Positions 3,454-52,759 of a DNA stretch of 64,000 nucleotides are shown one piece after another. Under the pieces are notes generated by a model. The model did no database searches. It had not been told where the DNA came from and saw nothing but the letters and a program-made list of their open reading frames with translations. How positions within the stretch are numbered: position 1 is the stretch's first letter; each line of letters begins with the position of its first letter. The stretch is from the NCBI RefSeq assembly GCF_014764385.1, contig NZ_CP061714.1, positions 1,984,001 to 2,048,000 of the forward strand. The letters are read 5' to 3'. Position numbers and translations under genes: made by a program. This DNA is from Luteimonas sp. MC1825. Its GTDB lineage: Bacteria > Pseudomonadota > Gammaproteobacteria > Xanthomonadales > Xanthomonadaceae.

Positions 3454-3482
3454 TGCGCCCCCGGCCCTCGCGGTCGGGAACC

Positions 3483-3573
3483 GGAGAGGTGGCAGAGCGG
3501 TTGAATGTACCTGACTCGAAATCAGGCAGGCGTTTATAGCGCCTCGGGGGTTCGAATCCCCCCCTCTCCGCCA
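3483..3573 (+). tRNA. tRNA-Ser (CGA)
   Basis: Acceptor stem GGAGAGG pairs with CCTCTCC, the CCA is encoded, the anticodon loop is CTCGAAA (anticodon CGA, reading UCG), and there is a long variable arm as in class II tRNAs. The T-arm contains GGTTCGAATCC. Confidence 0.96.
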
Positions 3574-3617
3574 GATACGCAAGAGCCCCCGCAAGGGGGT
3601 TTTTGCGTATCTGGCGG
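3568..3617. repeat. 50-bp inverted repeat spanning the tRNA 3' end and its terminator
   Basis: Perfect 15-base arms at 3568-3582 and 3603-3617 enclose the terminator stem CCCCC-gcaa-GGGGG. The left arm includes the last bases and CCA of tRNA-Ser, so downstream DNA carries an inverted copy of the tRNA terminus. Confidence 0.85.
3586..3604 (+). terminator. Rho-independent terminator of tRNA-Ser
   Basis: Stem CCCCC/GGGGG around a GCAA tetraloop, followed by TTTTT. It is nested within the larger inverted repeat and sits 12 bases after the encoded CCA. Confidence 0.85.
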
Positions 3618-40984: not shown

Positions 40985-43360
40985 TCAACCCCTGATCCGC
41001 GCTCCGTGCGCCGCCGCCACCGCACTGGTGACCGCACCCACCACCGCATCCACATCGCGGTCGGTCAGCGTGCGTGAATCGTCCTGCAGAATCAAGCCCA
41101 TCGCGACACTCTTGAATCCCGTTTCTACGCCTTTCCCGGCGTAGACGTCGAACAGGCGCAGACCGCGCAGGACCGGTCCAGCGGCACTCCGGGCAGAGGC
41201 TTCAAGATCCGCCCAGGCGACCGCGTCGGCGACGATGAATGCGAGGTCGCGGCGCACGGACGGGAACCTGGACTGCGCGCGGGCGCGCGGTACCGCGCGC
41301 GCGCGCAGTGCAGCCAGGTCGAGTTCGAACGCCACCACGGGATGGTCGAGCCCCAGCGCCTGCTGCAGGCGCGGGTGCAGTTCGGCGATCGCACCGACCA
41401 GCTGCCCGTCGCGCAGCACGTCCGCGGCCCGGCCTGGATGCGCCCAGGGGGGCGTGGCCGGTCGGAACGCCAGCGCGGTACCGGAGAGCGCCGCGAGGCC
41501 TTCCAGATCGCCCTTGAGGTCATGGAAGTCGACCCGGCGCGCGGCGGCGCCCCACTGCTCGCCGGCCGCATCGCCACAGGCCACGGCGGCGATGCGCGGC
41601 GTCTCCACCGGCGCTTCACCCGCGACCGCAGCGGTGAACACCTTGCCGAGCTCGAACAGGCGCACGCGCACCTGCTGCCGCGCGACATTGCGCGCCAGCG
41701 CGTCCACCAGGCCCGGCAGCAGCCGGGGCCGCATCACGCCGAGCTCGGCGCTGAGCGGGTTGGCCAGCGGCACCAGCGCCTCGTCGGCCTGCCACGTGGC
41801 AAGCAGGCCGGCATCGACGAAGGCGTAATTGATGGCTTCCAGGTAGCCACGGGCGGCGAGCGCGCGGCGCAGGTCGTGTTCGGGCAACTCGGTTTCCGAC
41901 GCCGCCACCAGGCGCATCGCGCCGCCGGGCAGCGTGGTGGGGATGGCGTCGTAGCCGTGGATGCGGGCCACCTCCTCGATAAGGTCCTCTTCGATCGCGA
42001 GGTCGAAGCGGCGGGTCGGCGCGGTGACGGTCCAGCCTTCATCACCCACCTCCACGCCCAGGCCCAGCGCACGCAGGATGCGCTCCACATCGGCATCGGC
42101 AATGGCGATGCCCAGCACGCGTGCAAGACGCGCACGGCGCAGGGGAATCGTCGTCGGCCGCGGCAGGTGCTGCGCATGGTCCACCGCGACCACCGGGCCG
42201 GGCACGCCGCCGGCGATGTCGAGGATCAGCCGCGTGGCGTATTCCATGGCGGTGCGCGGCAGTTCCGGATCGACGCCGCGCTCGAAGCGGTGGCCGGCGT
42301 CGGTATGCAGGCCCAGCTTGCGGCCACGGCCAATGATCGCGGCCGGCGCGAAATGTGCGGCCTCGAGGAAGACGTCGCGGGTCGCGTCTGTCACGCGCGT
42401 GTCGAAGCCGCCCATCAGCCCCGCCAGGCCGATCGCACGGTCCGCGTCGGTGATCACCAGGAAGCCTGCATCCAGTGCGACATCGCGGCCATCGAGCAGC
42501 TTCAGCGCCTCGCCGTCGCGCGCGCGGCGCACGCCGACCGGCCCCTGCAGCAGGCTGCGGTCGTAGGCGTGCATCGGCTGGCCGAGTTCGAGCATCACGT
42601 ACTGGGTGACATCCACCAGCAACGACAGCGGACGGATGCCGCTGCGGCGCAGGCGCTCGGCCATCCAGGGCGGCGTGGCGCGGCCCGCGTCGACACCACC
42701 GATCACCCGGCCGACATAGCGCGGCGCATCGGCGCCGGCATCCAGCGTGACCGCGAGCGTGGCGTTGCCCTGCGCGGGTACGGGGGTGGCGTCGAGCTCG
42801 ACCACCGTGCTGCCGCAGGCCGCCGCCACGTCGTAGGCGATGCCGCGCACGCTGAAGCAGTCGGCGCGGTTGGGCGTCAGCTTGAGTTCGATGCTGGCGT
42901 CGGGCAGGCCCAGGTAGTCCGCCAGCGACGCGCCAACCGGGGCATCCGCAGGCAGTTCGAGCAGGCCCGAGGCATCGGCGTCGATGCCGAGCTCTTTCGC
43001 CGAACACAGCATGCCGTTGGAGTCGACGCCACGCAGCTTCGCGGCCGTGATGGTCAGCGTGCCGACCTGGGCACCGATGGTGGCCAGCGGCGCGAGCAGG
43101 CCGGGGCGCGCATTCGGCGCGCCACACACGATCTGCAGCAGCGCATCGCCGCCGGCGTCGACCTGGCAGACCTGCAGGCGGTCGGCTTCAGGATGCTTTT
43201 CGGCGGACACGATGCGCGCCACCACCACGCCGTCGAGCGCGGCGCCCAGCGGCGTGAGTTCCTCGACCTCCAGGCCGATCGCGGTCAGCGTGGCCGCGAG
43301 CTCATCGCGCGAGGCGGTGGTGGAGACGTGCTGGCGCAGCCAGTTCTCGGAAAATTTCAT
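40985..43360 (-). CDS. pheT: Phenylalanyl-tRNA synthetase beta subunit
   Basis: A 791-residue subunit of the alpha2-beta2 PheRS. In order: the N-terminal [12 protein letters not shown], an EMAP-like tRNA-binding domain (residues about 40-150, with [22 protein letters not shown]), B3/B4 editing domain, B5 domain near 400-470, the catalytic-like core, and a C-terminal FDX-ACB domain ([12 protein letters not shown]). Length is normal. It begins nine bases after the pheS stop. Confidence 0.96.
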
Positions 43361-43369
43361 GCGGCGGCC

Positions 43370-44857
<1,488 letters not shown>

Positions 44858-45055
44858 TCAGAGATACGGCAGCATGCGATCGAGACGACCGCTGTCGCAC
44901 GCAGGAATGTGGTTCGTCTGACGGAGGTTGCGCTTCCGCTTCGTCGCCTTCTTGGTGAGGATATGGCTACGGTTCGCGTGGCCTGCCTTGTACTTGCCGG
45001 ACGCGGTCTTCCTGAAGCGCTTGGCCGCGCCCCGGTGCGTCTTGATCTTGGGCAT
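44858..45055 (-). CDS. rpmI: 50S ribosomal protein L35
   Basis: A 65-residue very basic protein of the large subunit. [20 protein letters not shown] and [16 protein letters not shown] are the family signatures. It is preceded by a 258-base spacer after infC with its own candidate promoter, and followed closely by rplT. Confidence 0.98.
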
Positions 45056-45313: not shown

Positions 45314-45835
45314 TCACTTCTTCTTGGGCGCGATCATCATGACCATCTGCCGGCCTTCAAGGCGCGGCCTGGACTCGATGACGATGTCCTCGCCGAGATC
45401 GGTCTCGATCCGGCCGGCCATCTCGCGGCCCAGCTCCTGATGGCTCATCTCGCGGCCACGGAAACGGATGTTGACCTTGATCTTGTCGCCTTCCTCGAGG
45501 AACCCGCGCATCTTGCGCAGCTTGATCTGGTAGTCGCCCTCGTCGGTCACCGGACGGAACTTGACTTCCTTGATCTCGACCTGGCGGGTCTTCTTCTTGG
45601 CTTCGTTCGCCTTCTTCTGCGTCTCGAACTTGAACTTGCCGAAGTCCATGACCTTGCACACAGGCGGATCGGCATTGGGCTGGATCTCGACGAGGTCGAG
45701 TCCTTCCTCTTCGGCCATGGCGATGGCCTCGTCGCGCGAAAGCACGCCGATCATCTCGCCGTCCGAACCGATCACGCGCACGCGCGGCACGCGGATTTCG
45801 CCGTTCCTTCTATTCTGCTTGTCAGGTGTGCTGAT
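45314..45835 (-). CDS. infC: Translation initiation factor IF-3 (AUC start)
   Basis: A 173-residue factor that binds the 30S subunit and checks start-codon selection. [23 protein letters not shown] opens the N-domain, and the C-domain holds [29 protein letters not shown] and [10 protein letters not shown]. The start is ATC at 45835, preceded by GGAG at eight bases and beginning the family-typical STPDKQN. No ATG fits; a GTG 24 bases upstream adds eight residues and has no ribosome-binding site. A non-AUG start is the known basis of IF3 autoregulation. Confidence 0.92.
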
Positions 45836-45928
45836 GTTGCAATCTCCGTGGGTGAACACTACCGGGCAGGACCCGGATGCCGGGCCCCATGGCGCCTGCC
45901 ATCTGGCGGGCGCGAGGCTACATGATAC

Positions 45929-47836
45929 TCAGCAAGGGGCCCGTTCTGCATGCACGCGGGCGATGAAGTCCGAAAGCGGCATGCTGCCCAGGTCCTCCCC
46001 CGCCAGGGTGCGCACGGCGACCGCCCGGGTCTCCTTCTCGCGGTCGCCCACCACCAGCAGGTAGGGCACCCGCTGCATCGTGTGCTCGCGGATCTTGTAG
46101 CCAACCTTCTCGTTGCGCAGGTCGGATTCGACCCGAAGCCCTTGATTGACAAGGATATTCCGCACTTCTTCGACCCAGTCGGCCTGGGCGTCGGTGATGT
46201 TCATCACCACCGCCTGCACCGGGGCCAGCCAGGCCGGGAAGCTGCCGGCGTGGTGCTCGATCAGGATGCCGATGAAGCGCTCCATGGAGCCCACGATGGC
46301 GCGGTGCAGCATGACCGGGATCTGTTTCTGGCTGTTTTCGTCGACGTATTCGGCGCCCAGGCGGCCCGGCATCATGAAATCGACCTGCATCGTGCCCAGC
46401 TGCCAGGTGCGGCCGATGGCGTCCTTCAGGTGGTACTCGATCTTCGGGCCGTAGAACGCGCCCTCGCCCGGAAGCTCGGTCCACTCCACGCCGGCCGACC
46501 GCAGCGCCGAGCGCAGGGCTGTCTCGGCCTTGTCCCAGGTGGCGTCGTCGCCGAGCCGCGAATCCGGGCGCAGGGCGAGCTTCACCTGCACCTCCTCGAA
46601 GCCGAAGTCGGCGTAGACCTTCATGGCCTGGGCGTGGAACGCGGTCACCTCGGACTCGATCTGGCCCTCGGTGCAGAACACGTGGCCGTCGTCCTGGGTG
46701 AAGCCGCGCACGCGCAGGATGCCGTGCAGCGCGCCCGAGGGCTCGTTGCGGTGGCAGGCGCCGAACTCGCCGTAGCGGATCGGCAGGTCGCGGTAGCTGT
46801 GCAGGCCCTGGTTGAACACCTGCACGTGGCCCGGGCAGTTCATGGGCTTCACCGCGTAGGTCCGCTTCTCGGACTCGGTGAAGAACATGTTCTCCTTGTA
46901 GTTGTCCCAATGGCCGGACTTCTGCCACAGGCTCACGTCCAGCACCTGCGGGCAGCGCACCTCGCCGTAGCCGCTCGTGCGGTACACGCCGCGCATGTAC
47001 TGCTCCACCACCTGCCAGATGGCCCAGCCCTTGGGGTGCCAGAACACCAGGCCCGGTGCCTCTTCCTGCAGGTGGAACAGCTCCTGCTGCTTGCCGATGC
47101 GGCGGTGGTCGCGCTTCTCGGCTTCCTCGATGCGCTGCACGTAGGCCTTGAGCTGCTTGGCATCGGCCCAGGCGGTGCCGTAGATGCGCTGCAGCTGCTC
47201 GTTCTTGGAGTCGCCGCGCCAGTAGGCGCCGGACACACGCGTCAGCTTGAACGCCTTCAGGAAGCGCGTGTTGGGCACGTGCGGGCCGCGGCACATGTCC
47301 ACGTACTCCTGGTGGTGGTACAGGCCCATCTCGGTGACGTCCGGCCCCATGTCCTTGATGAGGCGCAGCTTGTAGTCCTCGCCGCGCGTCTGGAAGACAC
47401 CGATGACCTCCTCGCGCGGGGTCATGCGCTTGATGACGTCGTACTCGGTATCGATCAGCTCGCGCATGCGGGCTTCGATCGCGGCCATGTCGTCCGGCGT
47501 GAAGGGCTGCGCGCGCCAGACGTCGTAGTAGAACCCGTCCTCGATCACCGGCCCGATCACCATCATGGCGTCCGGGTACAGCTGCTTGACCGCGTGGCCC
47601 ACCAGGTGCGCGCAGGAGTGGCGGATGATCTCCACGCCCTCGGCATCCTTGGGGGTCAGGATCTGCAGGCTGGCGTCGTGGTCGATGAGGTCGGAGGCGT
47701 CGACCTGGCGGCCGTCGACCTTGCCGGCCACGGTGGCCTTGGCCAGGCCGGGGCCGATGGACTGCGCGACCTCCATGACGGAGACGGGGTGGTCGAACTC
47801 GCGGCGGCTGCCGTCGGGGAGCGTGATCGTGATCAT
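45929..47836 (-). CDS. thrS: Threonyl-tRNA synthetase
   Basis: A 635-residue class II synthetase. The N-terminal TGS domain ([14 protein letters not shown], residues 1-65) is followed by the second additional domain with [17 protein letters not shown] near 74 (editing of mischarged serine), the catalytic core with [10 protein letters not shown] (zinc Cys) and [12 protein letters not shown] near 365, and the anticodon-binding domain from about 535. ATG 47836 is chosen over an upstream frame running through the leader. A leader peptide with Thr codons and a terminator lie upstream. Confidence 0.96.
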
Positions 47837-47886
47837 GTATGGGCTGCTGGCTGGGCGGTCGGCAAGGGCTGCAGGCCGCGGACAAG

Positions 47887-47911
47887 AAAAAAGCGCCACG
47901 CGGGCGCCTTC
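47887..47911 (-). terminator. Terminator in the thrS leader (candidate attenuator)
   Basis: On the minus strand AAGGCGCC-CGCGT-GGCGC followed by TTTTTT; counting G-U and A-U closing pairs the stem is about eight base pairs. It lies between the leader peptide stop and the thrS ATG, 51 bases before the latter. Confidence 0.7.
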
Positions 47912-47933
47912 CGTAATCGGCCGCGGGCGGGAA

Positions 47934-47960
47934 TCAGCGGTGGGCGGTGGTAGTGCTCAT
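47934..47960 (-). CDS. Threonine-rich leader peptide of thrS (MSTTTAHR)
   Basis: An eight-codon open frame ATG AGC ACT ACC ACC GCC CAC CGC TGA with three consecutive Thr codons, 23 bases upstream of a terminator that precedes thrS. The codon choice and arrangement are those of a transcription attenuator: stalling at Thr codons when charged tRNA-Thr is scarce would favour read-through. The ribosome-binding site is weak (GAG about nine bases upstream). Alternative folds are visible, for example CGCGG after the peptide with CCGCG inside the terminator. Function is inferred. Confidence 0.6.
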
Positions 47961-48018
47961 GTCGCACGCTCGGCCGGCGTTGCCGCGGGCCACCTTTGCG
48001 CCAAGGGTGGAGCGCCCG

Positions 48019-48024
48019 ATTCTA
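48019..48024 (-). promoter_or_regulatory. -10 element of the thrS operon promoter
   Basis: TAGAAT on the minus strand, about 59 bases upstream of the leader peptide ATG and just after virB6. The -35 is not conspicuous. It would give a leader of about 175 bases before thrS. Confidence 0.45.
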
Positions 48025-48051
48025 GAACAAATCGTCCGCGGCGGCGCCGGG

Positions 48052-49191
48052 CTACCCGGAATGTCCGGCGGGGCGGATGACATCGACATCGACCTTCGCG
48101 GACCGCTGTCCCGCAAGTCGCATCGCCCCCGCCGGGTCGCTGGCCTCCATCGCGGACGCGGCGCCATGCCCTGCGGCGACCGGGGCATGGGCTGCGGCGA
48201 CGCCGGGAGGCAGTCCGGACCCGGGTGGCGCGCCCTGCCCCGACCCTGGCGACAGGGCGTTGAGCGCGTTGTAGGCGGAGAACTGCCCGAGCACGCCGTT
48301 GAAGAAAACGGCGGCCATCGGCGGCGCGCCGATGATGAGCATGGTCAGGATCAATCCCATGCCGCCCTGCTGCATCGCCATCGCGGTCAGGCTCTCTTGG
48401 CTGGCACCCGTGGTCCAGCCTGCAACCCAGAATGCAATGCCAACCGCGATCACCATGTCGAGTGCCAGCGTAACCATCACCGTGAGCAGCGCCAGCGAAA
48501 ACAGCGTGCCGATGCCGTAGTAGAGCCATTTGGTGAACAGCTGCTGCGTTGCGCGGAACAGCAGGCACAGGATGAAGATGGGCCCGAGTCCGACCACCAG
48601 CGCGACGGCCACCTTGTTGAGCAGCAGGGTTGCCGCCGCCATGATCGCAGGGCCGCCGAGGCCGACGCCCGTGAACCACAACGCCCGGTCCTTCCGCTTG
48701 TCAGTCAGCAGGTCGTCGCCCGAATCCACCGAGTCGATCGCCGCCAACGCCACCTGCATGATCGCCAGCGTCCGGTCGATATCCGCATAGGGCCCGCCAT
48801 CACCCTCGCCCGTGATTGTCTCCGCGACAACTTCACTGAGGCCCTGCGTGAGCGTGCGGTAGATCGACCCGGAGCCGGCGGCAGCCCCGGTGGCGATCCC
48901 GATGACCAGCACCGCCTTGAGTGCGTCGGTGACCAGCGCCATCATCGGCTCGCGCGACTGACCGGTGGCGATCCGGTAACCATGCACGAGTATCCACAGC
49001 GTCAGCAGGCTCAGTGCGGCCGTACCCACCACCCGCAACACGCGACCCAGCAGGTTGCCGGCGAATTCGCTGATCTCGTCGTCAAGGAAGCTGCTGATCT
49101 CATGGAAAAAGACCATGTTGGGGAGGGCCGCCTGGCCTTGCATCCAGTCGATCATCCCCATGCCAATCCGCAGCGCGTCATCGATGGCCAT
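48052..49191 (-). CDS. virB6: T4SS inner-membrane channel protein VirB6
   Basis: A 379-residue polytopic protein, the last gene of the virB operon. At least five hydrophobic segments lie at about 50-75, 90-105, 180-215, 230-265 and 280-300, with the conserved central Trp-containing loop. It matches the TrbL/VirB6 family that forms the inner-membrane part of the translocation channel. The C-terminal 70 residues are hydrophilic, Ala/Gly/Pro-rich, and probably disordered. It starts 13 bases after the virB5-like gene; no effector or immunity gene follows before thrS. Confidence 0.85.
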   Translation of the reverse strand: MAIDDALRIGMGMIDWMQGQAALPNMVFFHEISSFLDDEISEFAGNLLGRVLRVVGTAALSLLTLWILVHGYRIATGQSREPMMALVTDALKAVLVIGIATGAAAGSGSIYRTLTQGLSEVVAETITGEGDGGPYADIDRTLAIMQVALAAIDSVDSGDDLLTDKRKDRALWFTGVGLGGPAIMAAATLLLNKVAVALVVGLGPIFILCLLFRATQQLFTKWLYYGIGTLFSLALLTVMVTLALDMVIAVGIAFWVAGWTTGASQESLTAMAMQQGGMGLILTMLIIGAPPMAAVFFNGVLGQFSAYNALNALSPGSGQGAPPGSGLPPGVAAAHAPVAAGHGAASAMEASDPAGAMRLAGQRSAKVDVDVIRPAGHSG

Positions 49192-49988: not shown

Positions 49989-52457
49989 TCAATTCGCACG
50001 CACGTCCCCGCTACTGTCGTGCGGCGTGCTGTCGCCATGCCTGCCGGTGCCACGTCGCGCAGCCTGGAAAGCCTCCAGCCATTGCACCGGACGCAGATCG
50101 TCCGCCGGGATGCCGTGGATGCGCGCCTGCTCGGCCAGGACCCGATGCATCACTTCGATGTTGTCGGTCGATGCAGATATCACGGCGAGTGCGTCGTCCA
50201 GGCCATCCAGGTCGAGCCGGCAGACGCTGGAGGCATGCCCCTGTTTGACAAGGAAGCACCGTGACCGCTCGTCGAGCGACAGCACCACGCGAAACTCGGC
50301 CTCGGTCAGCTTCAAGCCATCCACGTAATCGGCGCGGTTGGCGTTCGGGTTGGGCAACAGGACCAGGGTCGCTGTCTGCTCCACAAGTGCCGCGGCGATG
50401 TCGCTGGACAGCGCATCCTCCGGGCTCTGTGTCGCAAAGATGCCCAAGCCATTTTGCTTGCGGATGGTCTTCTGCTTGTTGCGCGCGAAATCCTTGAGCG
50501 CACCGCCGCCATCGAGGATCTTCCAGAACTCGTCCATCACGTAGATCAGCCGGCGCCCGTCGATCAACCCCTCGAGGCGATGCAGCAGGTAGCGCACCAC
50601 CGGGACCCGCACCTCCGCGTTGTCGACGACGTCGGTGTAATCGAAACCGATGATGTTGGCGCGCGAAAGATCGACCGTGTCGACCGGATTGTCGAACACC
50701 CAGCCAAGGCTGTGGCCGGTGGTCCACTTGCGCAGGCGCGCATAGAGGCCGTCGTCACCCATGTTGGGCAGGCTCTTCTGGAAGTTGGCCATGCTGCGCA
50801 GTGGCGGCGGCGTGTCGAGGATGCCCTCCACGGCCCGGTGGATGTCATCGTCCTCGCGCGCGGTGTACGAGGCTTTCCCGGCGAGGATCCGGGTCAGTTC
50901 GGCGAGGAACTGCACGTTGGCCTCCGTGCGCTCGCACTGGAAGGGATTGAACCCGGTTGCGCGGCCGTTTTCCAGCGCCAGGTAGTTGCCGCCGCACGCC
51001 CTCACGAAGATCTCGGCGCCACGGTCCTTGTCGAAAAAGAAGATCGTCGGTGCCGGCTCAAGTTTCTGCACCTGGCTGAGAAGGAAGTTCACGAGCGCCG
51101 TCTTCCCGGTCCCGGACTTGCCGATGACCATGGTGTTTCCGAGGGCCTTCTCGCCACGCGAATCCTCTGCGGCGAGGGTTGCGTGGAAGTTGAAGAAGTA
51201 CGGCTGACCGTTGGTGGCCTGCAGGGTGGTCACGCACTCTCCCCAAGGATTCCTGGCCCGCTTCCCACTGGCGAAGTTGTGCAGCGGCGAGAGGCCCAGG
51301 AAGTTCAACGAGCTGACGTTGGCCAGTCGAGTGCGATACCGCCAGTTGCCGGGAAGCTGGGCATAGAATGCCGAAGCCACCGCCAAGTCCTCCTTGGCGG
51401 ACACGAATCCTGCGTTTGAAAGCTCCGCCCGCGCCGCCGCGATGTTGTGCGACAGCGCCTGCTGGTTTGCGGCATGCACGGCGAGCGAGAAATGGAACTC
51501 GCCGAGCACGAAGTTGCCGGACGCCAACTGGTCCATTGCATGGTCCAGTTCGGCGATCTGGCTGACCGCCTTGTCTCCCGAAGACACCATCATGCCTTTG
51601 GTGCGCTCCAGCACCCGGAGTGCGTCCTGGCGACCCATCGGGCTGAACGACTGGGTCATGACATATTCGAAATCCAGGTATTTCAGGCCGTTCAGGATCC
51701 CGGGCCAGGTGGCGTCGCAATACTCCTTGATGTTGAGGATGGCGCCGTACTCGTGTCGCCCGCACGGGGTGGCCACCACGAAATCGCCCGTCCGTGCGGA
51801 GAACGTGTGCCGACTGACCGGCAGGTAGTCGGCGATCGGTGCCGCCAGCACCGGCACCGGCTCGTCGAGGCGGTTGAGGATGTAGCCGTAAAACTCCAGG
51901 ACTTCGGAAAACAGGACGCCGTTGTCGGCTTCGTACATCCCGAGGCGCTGCGGGGCGTAGTCGGCCAGCACCGCCTCGACGTTGCCTGCCAGCTCCTGCA
52001 GGCGCGCCACCGCCTGTTCCTGTTCCGCGCGCAGGCGCCGCAGGTCGGAACTGTGCTCCGACATCCGTCTTCCCGACACGACCGGTCGGTACAGCATGCC
52101 GAGGTACAGCTCGTTCTGCAGCGCATCGTGCTCCGAAAGACGCGCGAAGTAGGCATCCGACAAGGCCTGGTTGAACGCCTGTGCGAACCGTCCGCCACCC
52201 TTGATGGCACGCCTGCGTCGGATGTCGTGCGCCCAGAAGGCCACATTGCTGGAATCCGGCGCGCGCAGCGACTGCAACAGCCGATTGAACGTGGCATGGC
52301 GGTGTTCCAGGTCCCACGCCTCGCGACCGACGAATGGCAGGCCGGCCAGGCGCCATGCCACCAGGAAATCGCCACCCGTGGTCTTCACCACCGTGGGTGA
52401 CACGTGCGACGACAGCGGCACGAACTCCGCCACTGTCGCATCGGCGGCGGCGCCCAT
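49989..52457 (-). CDS. virB4: T4SS ATPase VirB4
   Basis: An 822-residue cytoplasmic/inner-membrane ATPase that energises assembly. The N-terminal CagE/TrbE/VirB domain is followed by Walker A VIGKSGTGKTALVNF near residue 450, Walker B LIYVMDEFWKILD near 640 and IFATQSPEDAL. ATG 52457 overlaps the virB3 stop as TGATG; in-frame sequence further upstream lies over virB3. It is normal in length for VirB4 and shows no internal break. Confidence 0.95.
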   Translation of the reverse strand: MGAAADATVAEFVPLSSHVSPTVVKTTGGDFLVAWRLAGLPFVGREAWDLEHRHATFNRLLQSLRAPDSSNVAFWAHDIRRRRAIKGGGRFAQAFNQALSDAYFARLSEHDALQNELYLGMLYRPVVSGRRMSEHSSDLRRLRAEQEQAVARLQELAGNVEAVLADYAPQRLGMYEADNGVLFSEVLEFYGYILNRLDEPVPVLAAPIADYLPVSRHTFSARTGDFVVATPCGRHEYGAILNIKEYCDATWPGILNGLKYLDFEYVMTQSFSPMGRQDALRVLERTKGMMVSSGDKAVSQIAELDHAMDQLASGNFVLGEFHFSLAVHAANQQALSHNIAAARAELSNAGFVSAKEDLAVASAFYAQLPGNWRYRTRLANVSSLNFLGLSPLHNFASGKRARNPWGECVTTLQATNGQPYFFNFHATLAAEDSRGEKALGNTMVIGKSGTGKTALVNFLLSQVQKLEPAPTIFFFDKDRGAEIFVRACGGNYLALENGRATGFNPFQCERTEANVQFLAELTRILAGKASYTAREDDDIHRAVEGILDTPPPLRSMANFQKSLPNMGDDGLYARLRKWTTGHSLGWVFDNPVDTVDLSRANIIGFDYTDVVDNAEVRVPVVRYLLHRLEGLIDGRRLIYVMDEFWKILDGGGALKDFARNKQKTIRKQNGLGIFATQSPEDALSSDIAAALVEQTATLVLLPNPNANRADYVDGLKLTEAEFRVVLSLDERSRCFLVKQGHASSVCRLDLDGLDDALAVISASTDNIEVMHRVLAEQARIHGIPADDLRPVQWLEAFQAARRGTGRHGDSTPHDSSGDVRAN

Positions 52458-52759
52458 CACGAGGCTCCACGCACACGACAGTTGCTCGGCGCGAACGACC
52501 ACGCCCCACCGCGCAGCTGGAGGTTGCGCACGCCCAGGCGCATGCGCCAGCGCAATCCCAGCAGGCGGAACACCATCTCGTCGCGACGCGCCATCTGTCG
52601 CATTGCCAACACCGCTGGCGGCAGCAGGACAAGCAGCAGCAGGTTCACGTAGACCGCCAGCAGCAGGCACGCGCCGGCACCGATGAAGAACGGCACGTAC
52701 GGCACGCCCAGGAACATGGCAGGGCGCGTGCAGCCGCGAAAGAGCACATCCCTATGCAT
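52457..52759 (-). CDS. virB3: T4SS protein VirB3
   Basis: A 100-residue inner-membrane protein. HRDVLFRGCTRPAMFLGVPYVPF is the VirB3 N-terminal signature, followed by one long or two short membrane helices (residues about 21-50) and a basic tail. VirB3 works together with VirB4, and here the two genes overlap (TGATG). Its start overlaps the virB2 stop by eight bases. Confidence 0.92.
   Translation of the reverse strand: MHRDVLFRGCTRPAMFLGVPYVPFFIGAGACLLLAVYVNLLLLVLLPPAVLAMRQMARRDEMVFRLLGLRWRMRLGVRNLQLRGGAWSFAPSNCRVRGAS

Follow-up and report, generated by a model that had tools for sequence, protein, structure and literature searches.

A conserved threonine-codon leader and intrinsic terminator upstream of thrS in Luteimonas sp. 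MC1825 and its order suggest ribosome-read attenuation

The window analyzed in this work, a whole stretch of 64,000 nucleotides from Luteimonas sp. MC1825 (contig NZ_CP061714.1, positions 1,984,001 to 2,048,000), carries on its minus strand the genes thrS, infC, rpmI, rplT, pheS and pheT, in this order after a short leader region. In this region, an original prediction made from the letters of this stretch had placed a threonine attenuator. The features are the following, in the direction of transcription:
49989..52670, minus strand: VirB4-family gene, further upstream (TIGR00929, 708 bits).
48052..49191, minus strand: long frame just upstream of the thrS leader, without NCBIfam match.
48019..48024, minus strand: -10-like TAGAAT, candidate promoter of the leader, read from the sequence, no matching -35 being recognised.
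47991..47994, minus strand: GGTG, probable half of a Shine-Dalgarno sequence, invariant in the alignment.
47972..47991, minus strand: hairpin P1, GGCC-C-GCG-GCAA-CGC-C-GGCC with a C.C mismatch, based on covariation.
47934..47960, minus strand: leader frame MSTTTAHR* of 8 codons, sequence ATGAGCACTACCACCGCCCACCGCTGA, based on the sequence and on conservation.
47946..47954, minus strand: Thr codons 3 to 5 (ACT ACC ACC), proposed sensor, of which codons 3 and 4 are conserved.
47921..47925, minus strand: putative antiterminator 5' strand, CGCGG, based on a duplex search with the terminator.
47899..47903, minus strand: putative antiterminator 3' strand, CCGCG, made of the last base of the terminator 5' arm and of the loop, based on duplex and folding tests.
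47887..47911, minus strand: intrinsic terminator, with the stem-loop GAAGGCGCC-CGCGT-GGCGCTTTT at 47911-47889 and a U6 tract at 47892-47887.
45929..47836, minus strand: thrS, threonyl-tRNA synthetase, proposed regulated gene (TIGR00418, 708 bits; ATG at 47836-47834).
45314..45859, minus strand: infC (IF3), downstream of thrS (TIGR00168).
44485..45052, minus strand: rpmI (L35) and rplT (L20) (TIGR00001 and TIGR01032).
40985..44368, minus strand: pheS and pheT (TIGR00468 and TIGR00472).

The promoter-like box, the frame, the antiterminator segment and the terminator upstream of thrS are real. Reading the minus strand confirmed the elements that the original prediction had listed, at their positions and in their order: the TAGAAT box, the eight-codon frame with three consecutive Thr codons, the terminator hairpin with its U6 tract, and the thrS ATG located 3' of the latter. 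The two segments for which it had proposed an alternative pairing, CGCGG and CCGCG, are also present. The leader element was found in one copy only in its own genome, at up to three mismatches. The sequence of the window is by itself insufficient as proof, since a generic scan for promoters and terminators listed none in the leader region, the fold of the 173-nt leader is not more stable than those of shuffled sequences (z +0.93) and the criteria used for terminators also fire in control windows. The observation is judged real because of its conservation among relatives.

The thrS loci were collected at the levels of the genus, family, order and class using the TIGR00418 model, which matched 51 of 52, 190 of 198, 184 of 200 and 227 of 232 genomes, respectively (these sets overlap), and more loci were added by coordinates. 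For the order, 171 loci were read, of which 60 and 30 were the best-scoring ones and 80 were picked by hand, usually with one or two loci per genus; for the class, 80 loci were read. The named genomes of the order include Xanthomonas, Stenotrophomonas and Lysobacter. As judged by eye, the thrS start was placed too far upstream in five of the 171 loci (L072, L084, L087, L092 and L146). This analysis revealed a Thr leader before thrS in 141 of the 171 loci of the order and in 97 of the 101 loci of the family of the window (f1), Thr leaders of differing sequence being present in ten of the twelve families. The leaders of the window's type (type A), which carry the block AGGTGGCC-hairpin-GGYCGAGYGTGYGAC-ATG-NNN-ACT-AC, were found in 93 of the 101 f1 loci and in 16 of the 17 loci of f12, the family that includes Rhodanobacter. 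A search of CGAGYGTGYGACATGNNNACTA regardless of thrS, with one mismatch allowed, matched 162 of the 198 genomes of the family, apparently once each (none for the reversed control), and four of the 232 genomes of the class, all four belonging to the family of the window. For the named genomes, 76 of the 80 CGAGYGTGYGACATGNNNACTA matches among those listed have a ThrRS start at most 900 nt away.

Two other types of leaders were distinguished. Type B leaders (MTRTG.. and alike) follow a block resembling TAGTTCGAACGAACACGATCACCATG and occur in f2, in f3 and in two f1 loci. The MTR.. leaders of L105, L106 and L137-L141 (f2, f3 and one f1 genus) come after another conserved block, around TAGTTCGAACGAACACGATCACCATGAC, which has a small hairpin of its own. 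Type C leaders (MKTTT.., M..TRTT.., MCQQATTTTTP), whose peptides were assigned by reading and not by rule, occur in families f4, f6, f7, f8 and f10. Of the 20 type C loci, 18 have a TANNNT whose end lies 6-7 nt from the ATG on its upstream side (an average of 0.47 per position over the 20 loci at other distances up to 54 nt), and therefore their mRNA is predicted to be leaderless. The 30 loci of the order in which no Thr leader was found comprise all 12 of f9, 10 of the 18 of f8, two of the eight of f7, the sole f5 locus, four of the 101 of f1 (L100, L006, L011 and L019) and one of the 17 of f12, which indicates that thrS can do without such a leader. Three of them (L006, L011 and L019) belong to the genus of the window; their Thr leader is gone and thrS is preceded by a tRNA-Val(GAC) gene and a terminator-like hairpin. 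A tRNA-Val(GAC) gene also lies upstream of thrS in 18 further loci, which were chosen for their tRNA-like text and which belong to f1, f3, f4 and f11 when they carry leaders; L077, L168 and L175 are devoid of leader. This distribution suggests an ancestral arrangement tRNA-Val - leader - thrS. In some relatives, GAGCACTACC is common to the leader and to the tRNA-Val gene that precedes it, and the leader might conceivably derive from this gene.

Among the 109 type A leaders, codon 3 encodes Thr in all cases (ACT in 108) and codon 4 in 100 (ACC 88, ACG 8, ACT 3, ACA 1). Most of these leaders have 8 codons (n = 96) and all have 6 to 9; the stop codon (TGA 102, TAG 5, TAA 2) is codon 9 in 96 leaders and lies at codons 7-10 in all 109. 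The amino acid varies freely at codons 2, 5 and 6, while codon 7 is mostly His or Gln and codon 8 mostly Arg or Cys. Since the most constant position of codons 5-6 is the third base, the Thr codons are those that look selected as amino acids. This third-base constancy, which differs from the pattern expected for a conserved amino acid, is a point against an attenuator, and the near invariance of ACT at codon 3 could also reflect a constraint at the RNA level. ACT is a rare codon in the GC-rich family f1: it accounts for 18 of the 1564 threonines encoded by 61 thrS genes of this family and for two of the 136 encoded by six frames of the window. The leader-bearing f8 loci are AT-rich (24-34% G+C upstream) and read MKTTT with ACG as first Thr codon; in their thrS genes, ACG represents 0-4 of the 25-32 Thr codons, ACC being equally rare or rarer in some of them. 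Upstream of thrS, the short ATG frames whose end lies 5-50 nt ahead of a terminator have 33% threonine among their residues in f1 and f12 (110 frames) and 36% in eight other families (30 frames), compared to 5.5% for frames of shuffled upstream sequence (934 frames, not tied to terminators). A short upstream frame rich in cognate codons thus precedes thrS, and its conservation points to translation.

A terminator was found at 75 nt or less from the leader stop in 104 of the 109 type A loci, and in 90 of these 104 the distance between its stem and the first base of the stop codon is 23-31 nt. This places an intrinsic terminator between the frame and the gene. The five type A loci without recognisable terminator (L020, L023, L053, L113 and L132), which seem to have lost it, keep the sensor frame, with one Thr codon only in L053; control has probably been lost there or works in another way. 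The same criteria fire in 18 of 106 upstream control windows, and the leader is not unusually stable. Furthermore, a same-strand frame ends at 48052. These points could be accounted for by a plain terminator of this upstream gene accompanied by a chance frame containing Thr codons, thrS being expressed without any leader control. Such an arrangement is very unlikely, since the frame, the Thr codons, the stop, the spacing and the antiterminator are conserved and since promoter-like boxes lie upstream of the leader: of 107 type A loci, 72 have a -10-like TANNHT (TAGAAT in 27, TACCAT in 15) at 8-50 nt from the block on its upstream side, versus 9 of 107 for a control stretch. Transcription starting downstream of the terminator, a case that the original prediction had named as incompatible with attenuation, is spoken against by the fact that the window carries no TANNNT between the terminator and thrS.

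The segment that follows the leader stop pairs with the 5' arm and loop of the terminator, and the letters of both change together. The alternative pairing initially proposed for the window is retained in its relatives by compensatory changes: CGCGG:CCGCG in the window becomes CGAGG:CCTCG in many relatives, CAAGG:CCTTG in L058, CCAGG:CCTGG in L037 and CGAAG:CTTCG in L050. A first permutation test used 99 distinct pairs. In f1, the duplex of the leaders is stronger with their own terminator (-11.30) than with permuted terminators (-10.28, sd 0.17), none of the 200 permutations being as good. When only one locus per genus is kept (n = 39), the values are -11.09 and -10.29, a median of 0 and at most 2 of 100 permutations being as good. 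This covariation was not seen in f12, where 106 of the 200 permutations were as good.

Folding predictions, which are equilibrium folds and not kinetics, were made with codon 4 in the A site for the stalled state and with a leading edge of the ribosome assumed to lie about 13-14 nt ahead. For the window, the predicted probability of the terminator is 0.89 with a ribosome at the stop codon, 0.24 with a ribosome stalled at Thr and 0.22 without ribosome. In f1 (mean of 87 leaders), it is 0.86 at the stop and 0.26 when stalled, compared to 0.74 and 0.66 with shuffled spacers; in f12, it is 0.94 and 0.57, compared to 0.91 and 0.85 with shuffled spacers. By set cut-offs, 61 of 103 leaders (of the 104 loci, L131 was left out) are switch-like, versus 43 of 309 with shuffled spacers; 42 of the 103 are not switch-like in these equilibrium folds. 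According to the covariation and to these models, f1 leaders would have an antiterminator that excludes the terminator, blocked by a ribosome at the stop and free when the ribosome is stalled at the sensor.

The start region of type A leaders is also highly conserved. P1 was aligned for 106 of the 109 type A loci, corresponding to 91 distinct sequences (L022, L128 and L131 were left out). Its seven pairs are paired in 96.7% of the cells, and six of the seven show changes on both sides; none of 500 shuffles reached its pairing score and slid versions score far lower. Among 66 distinct hairpins, 47 retain the C.C mismatch and 6 have a pair of any kind at that position, while the loops differ in length and sequence among relatives. 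The GGTG (alignment columns 3-6) is identical in the 91 distinct sequences, although it was part of the pattern used for selecting them. Five leaders are devoid of hairpin: four have GAGGTG directly before the start (L108, L122, L146 and L147) and one has AGGAG (L090). In E. coli, the available excerpts of one article (PMC3858243) describe for thrS a bipartite ribosome-binding site interrupted by a hairpin. Given this likeness and the GAGGTG of hairpin-less leaders, we infer that P1 and the GGUG before the leader start most likely constitute a ribosome-binding site split by a hairpin. Two other structures of this region were dropped by eye: a stem GUGC/GCAC around the leader AUG, broken where codon 2 is GAC, AGG or GCA, and a pairing GGUGG:CUACC of the block with the Thr codons, broken where the block is GGUGACC.

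The conservation of P1, GGUG and the GAGYGUGYGAC stretch seems to exceed the needs of an ordinary ribosome-binding site, a part of this conservation being required by the selecting pattern. The leader might hence be translated while sensing would be done mainly by the conserved RNA of the P1 region, to which some protein or ligand would bind and so control the translation of the leader, the Thr codons being secondary. This is decidedly unlikely: Thr codons and terminator are kept without P1 elsewhere (types B and C, hairpin-less leaders of f11, L108, L122), and P1 keeps its pairing while its loop and sequence vary.

Comparison of relatives, which the original prediction had proposed as a check, thus showed that the frame with its Thr codons and its stop, the terminator and the pairing of the antiterminator are conserved, with compensatory changes, and supports its interpretation as a whole. 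Judging from these comparative data, which include a conserved hairpin and, in the family of the window, antiterminator covariation, thrS is very probably preceded by a transcription attenuator read by the ribosome and set by the supply of charged tRNA-Thr. RNA polymerase would start about 18 nt upstream of GGUG and a ribosome would initiate on the 8-codon leader. When Thr-tRNA is plentiful, the ribosome would reach the stop and cover CGCGG, so that the terminator would form and thrS would not be transcribed. When Thr-tRNA is short, it would stall at ACT-ACC (codons 3-4), leaving CGCGG free to pair with CCGCG in the 5' arm and loop of the terminator; the polymerase would then read into thrS. 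Read-through probably extends into infC-rpmI-rplT-pheST, the gene order suggesting a co-induction of infC-rpmI-rplT (and pheST). As antitermination is also predicted for the RNA of the window when no ribosome translates it, such a switch would need an efficient translation of the leader, which P1 and GGUG would provide. The start site, the stalling, the read-through, the sense of control and the role of the hairpin are all putative steps of this model.

A terminated leader of about 126 nt and its small peptide might also act mainly in trans, as rnTrpL and peTrpL do in Sinorhizobium, where the available part of PMC7298713 provides the precedent of a leaderless trp attenuator RNA and its peptide. 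This is extremely improbable for thrS, since the peptide is only loosely conserved outside the Thr codons; moreover, an action in trans would be compatible with attenuation in cis. Type C leaders resemble this Sinorhizobium trpL by their frame, which is predicted to start at the RNA 5' end (same excerpt of PMC7298713). The amino acid is Trp there, and leaders of the window's type differ by a predicted 5' UTR of about 50 nt.

Attenuators with leader peptides are well known in amino-acid operons such as thrL/thrABC, trp, his and pheA of E. coli. The thrS leader resembles them by its short frame carrying cognate codons, its mutually exclusive antiterminator and terminator and its U tract followed by the gene. 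Unlike them, it precedes an aminoacyl-tRNA synthetase gene and not a biosynthetic operon, and it encodes a peptide of 8 amino acids with only two conserved Thr codons, the first being fixed as the rare ACT. Attenuation in proteobacteria has reportedly been the subject of a study by Vitreschak et al. in 2004. The pheM-pheST attenuator of E. coli already places a synthetase gene under the control of a leader peptide in which the cognate amino acid abounds. The leader described here does likewise with Thr and not Phe, and it heads the whole thrS-infC-rpmI-rplT-pheST cluster. In Firmicutes, thrS is controlled by a T-box riboswitch that reads tRNA-Thr charging and includes a terminator and an antiterminator. 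The block AGGTGGCCCGCGG resembles by eye the T-box sequence, but unlike in a T-box a covarying hairpin and a reading frame come after it. The T-box was rejected: its covariance model matched nothing in the window at gathering score and nothing in 47780-48080 with a cut-off relaxed to E 5, and the sequence upstream of the block differs between relatives (by eye) and is short for a specifier stem. No Rfam family was found at the leader at gathering score, the sole match up to E 5 in 47780-48080 being an unrelated sRNA (10 bits); the Thr_leader family of Rfam is RF00506, according to the available text of PMC2659441. In the literature searched, outside of which most subscription papers lay, no description of a thrS leader peptide was found, including in the accessible parts of PMC2965389, PMC4833913, PMC2659441, PMC3858243, PMC6542539 and PMC7298713. 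This is a known regulatory principle at a gene and in a lineage for which we found no report, with an unusual conserved start region. The covarying hairpin P1 between GGUG and the leader AUG, the rare ACT, the distribution across the order, which includes leaderless-looking versions, and the contrast to the operator described below were absent from the original prediction.

thrS is a classic case of a synthetase that represses its own translation via tRNA mimicry. In E. coli, ThrRS binds a tRNA-Thr-like operator and represses thrS, according to the available portions of PMC3858243 and PMC6542539. We searched for operator-like hairpins, defined by a 9-nt loop with NGTA or NGTG, within 50 nt of the thrS start. 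Such hairpins were detected in 44 of the 80 thrS loci of the class outside the order (1 of 80 for a control stretch), often as GTGGCC-(loop with CGTA)-GGTCAC, whereas only five of the 171 loci of the order carry one (control 2), none with the GUGGCC/GGUCAC stem and none in the window. This count dropped 10 of 90 class loci in which no start was found, among which L226, L246 and L254 had an operator-like hairpin, and some of the thrS starts kept in the class are doubtful (L184, L206, L218 and L255). A looser scan gave 17 of 171 in the order, several of which are terminators (including the match in L001), and 13 of 28 in the class. The identity of these hairpins as ThrRS operators is suggested by their anticodon-like loop and by the E. 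coli case. Conversely, no Thr leader before a terminator was found in the 80 thrS loci of the class outside the order.

The thrS leaders share with the E. coli operator the gene concerned, a feedback on Thr-tRNA charging and a ribosome-binding site interrupted by a hairpin (PMC3858243, available excerpts). Unlike there, where ThrRS binds a mimic of the anticodon arm and blocks ribosomes at thrS, here codons would be read and transcription stopped. Control by an operator of E. coli type, in which ThrRS would bind a tRNA-Thr-like RNA and repress thrS, the frame being incidental, has this precedent in its favor (PMC3858243 and PMC6542539, available excerpts); the P1 strands GUGGCC and GGYC are also similar to the operator-like hairpins of other Gammaproteobacteria. 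It is nevertheless highly improbable, considering the rarity of the anticodon-like loop inside the order, the variable length and sequence of the P1 loops, the distance of about 135 nt between P1 and thrS with a terminator in between, and the fact that 18 of the 20 type C leaders offer no RNA ahead of the ATG in which an operator structure could form.

With an operator-like hairpin outside the order and a Thr leader inside, the order seems to have traded one type of feedback for another. We tentatively propose, as a possibility to which we give somewhat less than even chances, that the ThrRS operator of other Gammaproteobacteria was replaced in the ancestor of the order by a codon-reading attenuator. 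This attenuator would consist of leaderless frames read from the first base of the transcript and, in Lysobacteraceae and Rhodanobacteraceae, of a frame whose Shine-Dalgarno sequence is interrupted by a covarying hairpin. In these two families, a pair of codons, of which the first is fixed as a rare Thr codon, would adjust the synthetase, and with it IF3, L35, L20 and PheRS, to the supply of threonine. P1 might even descend from the old ThrRS operator. Most of the order thus appears to use ribosome-read attenuation of thrS instead of tRNA mimicry, the operator and the attenuator forming a natural pair of solutions to one control problem. A leader of eight codons with two conserved sensor codons would be a very small sensor. 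Furthermore, with this choice of rare codons (ACT in GC-rich genomes, ACG in AT-rich ones), ideas on codon sensitivity can be tested by comparing species, and the various start architectures of one leader (leaderless, plain Shine-Dalgarno and Shine-Dalgarno split by a hairpin) invite direct comparison.

Two other observations were made in the window. Between rplT and pheS (44366-44420, minus strand), a hairpin GGGGAAGGGCGCAAGTCCTTCCCC is directly followed by the frame ATGTTTCGTTTTGGCTCCCCGAAGGTGCCCTGA (10 residues), whose stop overlaps the pheS start (TGATG). This frame may be the equivalent of pheM, the Phe leader of E. coli; a crude search of the region preceding pheS in the 80 loci of named genomes, part of which extend that far, revealed no other candidate. 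The Rfam family sX4 (RF02223, 79 bits) matches positions 3473-3604 and covers there a tRNA-Ser(CGA) gene (3483-3573), and therefore this family may partly correspond to a tRNA with its flanks.
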